NCBI RefSeq assembly: GCF_016616235.1
Contig: NZ_CP067100.1
Span: 3,345,001-3,409,000 of the forward strand
Length of the DNA stretch: 64,000 bases
Origin: Bradyrhizobium diazoefficiens
GTDB lineage: Bacteria > Pseudomonadota > Alphaproteobacteria > Rhizobiales > Xanthobacteraceae
Reading direction: 5' to 3'
Below, piece after piece: positions 30,478 to 31,312 of the stretch (position 1 is its first letter; each line of letters opens with the position of its first letter). The notes under the pieces are model-generated. The model had not been told where the DNA came from. It saw nothing but the letters and a program-made list of their open reading frames with translations, and ran no database searches. The translations under genes were made by a program, and so were the position numbers.

Positions 30478-30858
30478 TCACGGCGATGTCGTGCCGAACC
30501 CATCGGCTGCGACGTAAAGCTTCACCGGGCGGATCTCGTAGACCGCGGTCGGATTGACCTCGCGCAGCTTCCGCGCCGCCGCGATCGCCTCCTCGTCCGT
30601 GTCGTATTCGACGAGGTGGAAGCCGAGAAGCTGCTCCTTGGTCTCTGCAAACGGGCCGTCGAGCACCATGCCGGCGCCGGGGCCGCGCAGGGTGCGGGCC
30701 TTTCGGGTGTCGTCCAGACGTGCGGCCGGCCCGAAATGTCCGCTGGCGCGCAGCGGCGCCTGCACTTCGATGACTTTGGCCACGACCGCGGCGTCCTGCT
30801 CCGGCGTCCAGGACCGGATCTCGTCTTCCACATGGTAGGCCAGGATGGCGTAGAGCAT
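30478..30858 (-). CDS. YciI-like (YCII-domain) protein
   Basis: This 126-residue protein has the YciI fold with the DGPFAETKEQLLGF signature and a following basic/acidic beta-alpha pattern. Family members are small dimeric enzymes or regulators with a ferredoxin-like fold, often next to DGPF-type sigma factor genes in rhizobia, though none is seen here. The ATG follows GAGGTGACG. The gene lies downstream of the rreB terminator, so it needs its own promoter or readthrough. Confidence 0.82.
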   Translation of the reverse strand: MLYAILAYHVEDEIRSWTPEQDAAVVAKVIEVQAPLRASGHFGPAARLDDTRKARTLRGPGAGMVLDGPFAETKEQLLGFHLVEYDTDEEAIAAARKLREVNPTAVYEIRPVKLYVAADGFGTTSP

Positions 30859-30937
30859 CGTCACCTCGTTGATTTTTTGTTGCGCGCGTCCAAAGGACGT
30901 ATTGCCGCAGCTTGTGCCGACAAAACCCCAAAGAAAA

Positions 30938-30964
30938 GGCGCGGCGGGGAGGCCCCGTCGCGCC
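30938..30964 (-). terminator. intrinsic terminator of rreB
   Basis: The 12-bp stem (GGCGCGGCGGGG against CCCCGTCGCGCC, one G-T pair, three-base loop) is followed on the minus strand by TTTTCTTT. Counting from the promoter at 31106-31134, transcription would yield an RNA of about 166 nt, close to the 165 nt I recall for rreB. Confidence 0.88.
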
Positions 30965-31026
30965 CGATTTCTTGCTCGCTGGTCCAGGGCTGAGAGCGCC
31001 CCGATGCCAGGCCTTTGGTTCAAAGC

Positions 31027-31071
31027 CTAGCGGGCGATCCCAGCGAGGTGACAGCGCTTGAGATAAGACAC
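31027..31071 (-). CDS. rreB: rreB, 14-residue peptide with a 17-nt Shine-Dalgarno
   Basis: A GTG-started frame of 14 codons (VSYLKRCHLAGIAR) ends at TAG. I recognise it as rreB (ribosome-regulated expression in Bradyrhizobiaceae), described as a small mRNA of about 165 nt with an unusually long SD and a GTG start. In that description translation was weak, and binding to 30S subunits appeared to control RNA stability. The sequence here has every feature: extended SD, GTG, a near-consensus promoter and a tight terminator. The peptide's own function is not known to me. This peptide is far below usual gene-finder limits. Confidence 0.93.
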   Translation of the reverse strand: MSYLKRCHLAGIAR

Positions 31072-31087
31072 TGGATCACCTCCTTTC
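31071..31087 (-). promoter_or_regulatory. 17-nt extended Shine-Dalgarno of rreB
   Basis: On the minus strand GAAAGGAGGTGATCCAG runs up to and into the GTG start. It is complementary over 17 bases to the 3' end of 16S rRNA (whose sequence reads on the plus strand here). A normal SD matches 4-7 bases. Such long pairing should hold the 30S subunit rather than speed initiation. Confidence 0.93.
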
Positions 31088-31105
31088 GTTGGTTACGGGA
31101 GCCTC

Positions 31106-31134
31106 AATATAGGGTCGAATCGCCGCGCCGTTAA
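31106..31134 (-). promoter_or_regulatory. rreB promoter
   Basis: TATATT (31106-31111, minus strand) is the -10 and TTAACG (31129-31134) the -35, separated by 17 bases. The expected start is near 31099, about 28 bases before the GTG. This is the clearest sigma-70-like promoter in the neighbourhood. Confidence 0.8.
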
Positions 31135-31238: not shown

Positions 31239-31312
31239 GCGGGTGTAGCTCAATGGTAGAGCAGCAGCCTTCCAAGCTGAATACGAGGGTTCGATTCCCT
31301 TCACCCGCTCCA
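31239..31312 (+). tRNA. tRNA-Gly (anticodon UCC)
   Basis: The 74-nt cloverleaf has acceptor GCGGGTG/CACCCGC, a standard D-arm, anticodon loop CTTCCAA (UCC) and T-arm GTTCGATTC. The CCA is encoded. The gene directly precedes a block of foreign-looking genes, and a degenerate copy of its 3' part lies at 36051-36097 in the same orientation, which suggests site-specific integration at its 3' end. Confidence 0.96.

Follow-up and report, generated by a model that had tools for sequence, protein, structure and literature searches.

The locus discussed here raises the question whether a reading frame of 14 codons, preceded by a Shine-Dalgarno sequence (SD) of 17 nt, is kept for its peptide or for its RNA. 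It lies on the minus strand of the window, that is, the whole stretch of 64,000 nucleotides from Bradyrhizobium diazoefficiens that was analysed (contig NZ_CP067100.1, positions 3,345,001 to 3,409,000), and is composed of the following parts, in window coordinates.

31106 to 31134, minus strand: sigma-70-like promoter, with the -35 box TTAACG at 31134–31129, a spacer of 17, and the -10 box TATATT at 31111–31106
31099, minus strand: estimated transcription start, placed from the spacing about 7 nt past the -10 box
31071 to 31087, minus strand: Shine-Dalgarno sequence GAAAGGAGGTGATCCAG, 17 nt, the last G doubling as base 1 of the start codon
31027 to 31071, minus strand: rreB frame, GTG at 31071–31069, 14 codons VSYLKRCHLAGIAR, TAG at 31029–31027
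30930 to 30964, minus strand: intrinsic terminator, a stem-loop at 30964–30938 with one A.C mismatch, followed by TTTTCTTT at 30937–30930

A sequence-only reading had described this promoter, 17-nt SD, GTG-started frame, and terminator and had named the unit rreB, and with all four parts matching the identification held. The TTAACG-17-TATATT promoter-like site was found once in 701 bp as against 0.1 expected from shuffles, and a CCTATATT-like box lies upstream in many relatives. No match in the window to the complement of a 22-nt 16S rRNA tail is longer than the SD, and no other reaches 17 nt. As the 16S 3' end of the B. diazoefficiens genome itself was masked, the tail was that of other Alphaproteobacteria; plasmid-borne rRNA operons agreed with it (380 records, with 203 at 99% or more; the 40 matches listed are all alphaproteobacterial). 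A simple scan reported a terminator-like site on the plus strand only, probably because of the A.C mismatch on the transcribed strand; the terminator of rreB could be aligned in the relatives. The leader between promoter and SD is short, the terminator stem-loop is GC-rich and follows the stop codon at about 60 nt. At the level of the sequence a transcript of about 165 nt appears to have its own promoter and terminator. For a 170-nt rreB RNA a fold of -84.1 kcal/mol was predicted (z -5.05), which none of 200 shuffles equalled. A single copy of the pattern AAGGAGGTGATCC is present in the unmasked genome of 7.67 Mb. The unit was present in 34 of 36 Bradyrhizobium genomes, this one included, the two without it being fragmented assemblies, and a family-wide DNA search with rreB matched 197 of 296 genomes, many over only about 32 nt around the SD. 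A divergent tRNA-Gly (tcc) gene lies just upstream at 31239–31312 on the plus strand, and the next gene downstream encodes a YCII-domain protein (30478–30858, minus strand).

The published rreB is reportedly a 165-nt mRNA for 14 amino acids with a 17-nt SD; its RNA is said to co-sediment with the 30S subunit, SD and GTG reportedly impede its translation, replacement of the start codon by a stop is said to stabilise the RNA, and Rhodobacter relatives reportedly carry an 18-amino acid counterpart, rreR. The window unit has the GTG-started 14-codon frame of the RCHLAGIAR type, which we take to be that of the published peptide, and the 17-nt 16S complement ending at the start codon. It shares GTG start, 14 amino acids, 17-nt SD, a predicted unit of about 165 nt, and lineage with the published gene, and no difference between the two was found. 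The minus-strand unit is thus the published Bradyrhizobium small mRNA rreB, a known gene correctly spotted. The sections consulted of PMC7298713 give, as reference 65, Hahn et al. 2017, RNA Biol 14:1353, on rreB.

One answer to the question would be an ordinary small protein gene, with a functional 14-amino acid peptide and a long SD that just secures its expression. The amino acids RCHLA are kept across the rreB clade, as this reading would have it, the 101 distinct units in which codons were compared having been selected by RCHLA and mostly found through DNA similarity. In all 101, however, codons 6–10 read CGC TGT CAC CTC GCT, so that every synonymous site of these codons is conserved too; by contrast, 11 different codons are found at position 3 and 10 at position 4. 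Retrieval of homologues by DNA similarity gives a bias toward conserved DNA; despite this bias variation was possible in the adjacent codons and in the 3'UTR, and it did occur there. Invariant in the 101 units were also positions -14 to -6 of the SD. Codons 6–9 are predicted to pair with the SD and the start codon.

31045 to 31082, minus strand: hairpin P1, in which GAGGUGA (31082–31076) and CAGUG (31073–31069) pair with codons 6–9, CGCUGUCACCUC (31056–31045)
31083 to 31087, minus strand: GAAAG, mostly unpaired beside P1, a putative toehold for the 16S 3' end

As the CAGUG strand includes the start codon, P1 is predicted to hide both SD and start codon. In alignment A1, with 75 rows taken from 103 distinct rreB-type units (near-identical rows omitted by eye), 99.1% of the P1 cells were paired as compared to 25–61% in slid controls, and all 12 pairs were present in 73 of the 75 sequences. 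The mean predicted probability of P1 was 0.95 over 97 units. The sole frequent change is an A to G in the SD which retains the pair as G.U (27 rows), and in two units (L082 and L083) P1 is lost. Two-sided covariation in P1 was not detected among the 75 aligned sequences, since P1 hardly varies. These comparisons suggest that evolution keeps the fold of the rreB RNA rather than its tiny peptide.

The amount of pairing is not what distinguishes the SD. In 100 rreB units mean pairing of the SD core was 0.73 against 0.72 in dinucleotide shuffles, hence no excess, and a general sequestration of the SD was rejected for the other kinds of unit described below as well (real against shuffled 0.67/0.71 in 73 units of type b, 0.66/0.65 in 18 of type d, 0.67/0.67 in 27 others); rreR is the only type with SD-core pairing above shuffles (0.85/0.66, 37 units). 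Pairing of the rreB start codon does exceed shuffles (0.96 versus 0.65). According to these predictions what is special in rreB is the fixed, conserved partner of the SD. Holding the SD of the window RNA single-stranded was computed to cost 12.7 kcal/mol, and the computed gain from the SD:anti-SD duplex was 10.3 kcal/mol for 7 bp, 13.8 for 9 bp, and 31.0 for 17 bp. Opening of P1 would thus cost more than 7 bp yield and less than 17 bp yield, which may explain why the SD is so long. The GAAAG segment has a predicted unpaired probability of 0.70 (sd 0.23, 101 units), and together with the energies this would allow the 16S tail to displace the ORF strand from a toehold beside P1. A complementarity of 17 bp worth -31 kcal/mol by calculation would equally suit an abundant RNA which does nothing but titrate 30S subunits, and the reported co-sedimentation with 30S fits such a decoy. 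We consider it quite improbable, because a pure decoy needs neither a masked SD nor an open frame with a conserved stop position.

The sequence-only reading had proposed a search for rreB-like units in Alphaproteobacteria, and units with such a hyper-SD and a short ORF indeed recur there in scattered lineages. Across the class 36 of 385 sampled genomes have the exact pattern AAGGAGGTGATCCARTG, and across the phylum 26 of 299 have it; all 26 belong to the same class or closer, and the reversed pattern used as control had no match among the rows listed. Most sampled genomes are without the exact pattern, and some matches are not small units: the exact SD patterns on which these cross-lineage counts are based also precede ORFs of 39–57 amino acids (L201, L204, and L214). 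Use of the unit as a lineage marker, which had also been put forward, therefore stands only in part, as the hyper-SD is found in other alphaproteobacterial lineages too, while the RCHLA segment does mark a narrower clade. A scan of named genomes yielded at least 116 stretches. Four recurrent peptide types were found behind the hyper-SD, namely rreB, VSHC...W, rreR, and MSSE. The VSHC...W units (type b) occur in Methylobacterium, Bosea, Microvirga, Ancylobacter, Brevundimonas, and others, rreR-type units of 18 codons in Rhodobacteraceae, and MSSE units in Nitratireductor, Pelagibacterium, and Hyphomonadaceae. Units of the Rhodobacter/Roseobacter lineage, for which we take rreR to be the name, resemble rreB in having the same SD and start, a short ORF, and a stand-alone unit. 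They differ in an 18-codon ORF (37 of 37 distinct units) with an unrelated peptide of the VSR.LERGVGT type and in the location of an anti-SD-like sequence (such as ACCTCC) in the 3'UTR, that of rreB being in the ORF. The window unit, with 14 codons and a different peptide, was accordingly rejected as an rreR.

In spite of the common SD the peptides are unrelated between lineages, and what is shared is the position of the stop codon. A stop in frame 0 at codon 13–28 was present in 98 of 98 rreB units, 70 of 72 of type b, 37 of 37 of rreR (type c), 17 of 18 of the MSSE type (type d), and 10 of 13 of the rest. The same stop window gave, in the same order of types, 61, 14, 10, and 2 (rest 3) in frame +1 and 33, 13, 5, and 2 (rest 1) in frame +2. 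Units with ORFs above 40 codons, more than one SD mismatch, or no detected terminator were excluded here and from the pairing comparisons below; the 40-codon cut limits frame 0 in the stop comparison, and the window of 13–28 is much narrower than this cut. With stops conserved and peptides unrelated, it seems that translation or the distance from start to stop is selected, a peptide sequence not being shared. An in-frame stop kept in every type is what a functional peptide would need, but lineages with the same SD have completely different peptides. The rreB peptide is also said to be unstructured and its translation weak. Together with the conserved synonymous sites this leaves the ordinary small protein gene a disfavoured and unlikely reading.

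Further hyper-SDs were seen outside these types. Five MAGs of Phycisphaerae/Planctomycetes (L094, L095, L097, L104, and L164) have a hyper-SD and GTG with ORFs of 9–16 codons, a GC-rich hairpin with a T tail downstream, and, in four of the five, GCTC(G/A)A soon after the stop; possibly this is the same principle outside Alphaproteobacteria. Two Myxococcota-like MAGs (L125 and L142) as well as L103, L160, and L179 carry a hyper-SD before ORFs of 14–15 codons with an internal GAGGTGG, the peptides of L125 and L142 being clearly related (VxxxCxYTAGEVVxF). In L114, L214, L138, L173, L187, and L201, the last four including three Azospirillum, the same extended SD precedes secreted-looking ORFs of 56–59 amino acids, which means that hyper-SDs are not confined to small structured units. 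Extended SDs near the start codon are reported for S. aureus in the portion of PMC13009471 consulted.

A short ORF followed by a terminator also recalls a leader peptide with an attenuator for the downstream gene, and an ArfB-like protein is encoded next in many, not all, Rhodobacteraceae loci. The neighbours vary, however, with the YCII-domain gene in B. diazoefficiens, RF3 upstream in Microvirga, an RNB-domain exonuclease in Bosea, and others elsewhere. As there is no conserved downstream gene in the same orientation across lineages, attenuation was rejected on synteny and is very improbable; the lists of neighbouring genes are qualitative only, one set of gene calls being noisy with spurious GC-rich ORFs. 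In Rhodobacteraceae loci such as L089, L090, and L113 the rreR-type unit lies between a transporter-like gene (..PGI.AMAAIVVASNILVQ) and the ArfB-like gene, the Pfam RF-1 domain of the ArfB-like homologue having been checked for L086 only. The rreR-type units beside ArfB-like genes may conceivably be linked to ribosome rescue. In four Microvirga loci (L151, L170, L182, and L196) the type-b unit adjoins a divergent gene for RF3, a peptide chain release factor (Pfam checked for L182 only).

Besides P1, pairing between the ORF and the stretch before the terminator was found.

31040 to 31047, minus strand: 5' strand of helix P3, CUCGCUGG, codons 9–11, from the alignment of rreB units
30975 to 30982, minus strand: 3' strand of P3, CCAGCGAG, in the 3'UTR just upstream of the terminator, with one covarying column and 18 both-side cells
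30989 to 31044, minus strand: predicted second hairpin of codons 10–14 with the 3'UTR, from the minimum free energy structure only

Each of the eight pairs of P3 (CUCGCUGR:YCAGCGAG) is kept in 72–75 of 75 rreB rows. The covarying column has GC in 49, AU in 18, GU in 5, and other combinations in 3 rows; support for P3 consists of this one column within the rreB clade and a single further unit, L196, in which two further compensated pairs are possible. Thermodynamic calculation did not predict P3 to form, with a mean probability of 0.06 that was 0.05 with the SD blocked, and blocking raised it in only 28 of 97 units. As P3 is not favoured thermodynamically its role in rreB is uncertain, and a clean switch between P1 and P3 found no thermodynamic support and was dropped. 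The second hairpin differs in other genera according to the minimum free energy structures. In types b and d a unit's own codons 2–8 pair with its own 20-nt preterminator better than with those of same-type units (z -8.5, n=72, every distinct type-b pair being taken, and z -5.0, n=18); the effect is weaker in type c (z -1.9, n=34) and in rreB (z -2.3, n=72). When the entire ORF and 45 nt were taken, the values were -11.8 (b), -7.6 (d), -0.7 (c), and -7.5 (rreB). Types b, c, and d pooled yield z -14.2 (n=124), which in part reflects how the types differ. As control a segment following the stop was used, with values of -0.9 to +1.9 within types and of +3.1 when pooled. In type b the pairing takes the form of a two-part helix with 84.1% of cells paired in 56 rows (alignment A2), a percentage which is favourable because of row omissions; it has 40 both-side changes as against 15.1 in shuffles, none of 500 shuffles having as many. 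A2 contains 55 of 74 type-b rows and L136, a near-duplicate of L080 from the same contig. The 19 rows left out comprise six of Ancylobacter type, in which the outer helix seems absent, L142, L150, L164, and L186, which are unlike the type-b family in appearance, near-duplicates, and rows without the AATGG anchor.

The type-b units lead to a family filed under another name. RF01867 of Rfam, CC2171, is a Caulobacter sRNA family of 159 positions with a gathering score of 75 bits. At E ≤ 0.001 the B. diazoefficiens genome matches it only in the window unit (E 8.4e-7, positions 1–159); the score is 41.2 bits, below gathering, of which the SD segment alone supplies 34.2. Of 41 genomes, this one included, 33 have exactly one match and one exceeds the cut-off; among 14 control genomes Caulobacter alone gave a signal. 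All eight matches outside the genus have a hyper-SD, one with two mismatches, and ORFs of 22–27 codons; a short ORF is present in each of the eight members chosen by RF01867 alone. Type-b units match RF01867 above its threshold, namely L136 (91.5 bits) and L151 (82.5 bits), which are the two type-b units among 18 sources, and L231 (98.7 bits) and L230 (78.6 bits), two of 20 sources. The consensus of RF01867 already holds the closing helix, and the ORF-to-preterminator helix covaries in CC2171. Shared by CC2171 and rreB are hyper-SD, short ORF, terminator, and one match per genome. The closing helix of CC2171 (CAUUGUC:GACAAUG) is not formed in the window unit, where the alignment is gapped or non-standard, and rreB has instead P3, another complementarity of ORF and 3'UTR located further in. 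A model from which SD and start codon had been removed (R1, 40 type-b units in alignment A3, rows of A2) misses the window unit; its other rreB-type matches are weak (best E 0.016), and those in types c and d are mostly short spans at the terminator. Membership of rreB in CC2171 on the Rfam score alone was rejected on account of the share of the SD in that score and of the failure of R1.

The two are connected by L196 from Microvirga pudoricolor, a type-b unit with an ORF of 14 codons which scores 70.9 bits with RF01867 and E 1.7e-6 with the SD-free model, which had been built without it. Five rreB ORFs align better to its ORF than to those of the 73 other type-b units, none of 2000 shuffles reaching this in each case. 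P1 is present in it with U-A changed to U-G; it can also form P3, as CTCGCCGTG:CACGGCGAG with two pairs compensated, and the helix of CC2171, as CATTGTC:GATAATG with one G.U. As L196 bridges rreB and CC2171, common descent of the two is likely from these sequences but not proven. The literature searched, with the text of Hahn et al. 2017 outside its scope, contained neither a link of rreB to CC2171 nor P1, and under the same scope the publications on extended SDs, Caulobacter sRNAs, and BjrC sRNAs had nothing on the fold of rreB. In the sections consulted, the Rfam 15 paper lists CC2171 as one improved structure (PMC11701678), and a Mesorhizobium survey has it as one table row (PMC5596092).

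If CC2171 is taken at its label, rreB might be a base-pairing regulatory sRNA in which the CACCUC of the ORF pairs with the SDs of other mRNAs, perhaps once 30S has freed it. The family, typed as sRNA, aligns along its entire length with the rreB locus, CACCUC has a sequence complementary to SDs, and sRNAs with an anti-SD-like motif, SisA-D, are known in Caulobacter from the passages available of PMC12559287. These share that motif with rreB; they differ, according to the same passages, in being Hfq-associated and acting in trans, with no hyper-SD described. We regard such a role as improbable for rreB, in view of P1, which locks CACCUC in 73 of 75 aligned units, and of the SD segment as source of most of the Rfam score.

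The reading preferred here, to which we would give an even chance, is that rreB is a self-masked small mRNA of about 165 nt opened by binding of 30S, with the RNA under selection and the peptide probably secondary. The comparisons demonstrate the parts of the unit, the invariance of codons 6–10 with their synonymous sites, the conservation of P1, and the stop position; the course of events would then be as follows. At rest SD and GTG would be zipped to codons 6–9 in P1, with GAAAG largely single-stranded. The 16S 3' tail would land on this toehold and displace the ORF strand, the 17-bp duplex paying for an opening of P1 which an ordinary SD could not afford. The captured 30S would clear slowly, and each passing ribosome would also melt the pairings of the ORF with the pre-terminator 3'UTR, so that fold and lifetime of the RNA would depend on ribosome traffic. 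In this way rreB RNA would read out, and may buffer, initiation-competent 30S. Against the self-masked mRNA stand the occlusion of the SD, which is not above shuffles, P3, which is not predicted, the two units without P1, the lack of two-sided covariation in P1, and the retrieval by DNA similarity. In the passages at hand of a Caulobacter ribosome profiling study, moreover, the listed ncRNAs are untranslated except for two previously predicted ones that are not named there (PMC4117421).

A wider and more tentative proposal is that rreB, rreR, and CC2171 form a single class of translated regulatory RNAs widespread in Alphaproteobacteria, in which a hyper-SD invades the fold with its own ORF, 16S rRNA is the switching ligand, the product is a ribosome-dependent RNA state serving to gauge free 30S, and the peptide arises as a by-product. 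Not noted in the sequence-only reading were the constraint acting on the ORF through the RNA, the hairpin that masks SD and start codon, and the broader set of such units to which CC2171 belongs; the present analysis adds a concrete mechanism for the long SD which can be put to the test, and probably unites rreB with a family classified as sRNA. The published oddity of a 17-nt SD is offered a quantitative reason, as a hairpin that resists a normal SD would yield to it, and the question of RNA or peptide becomes testable by synonymous changes in codons 6–9. The data suggest that the members of CC2171 would share a conserved short reading frame. If the wider proposal is true, the presence of comparable units in Planctomycetes, Myxococcota, and other groups would mean that the principle is either older or convergent.
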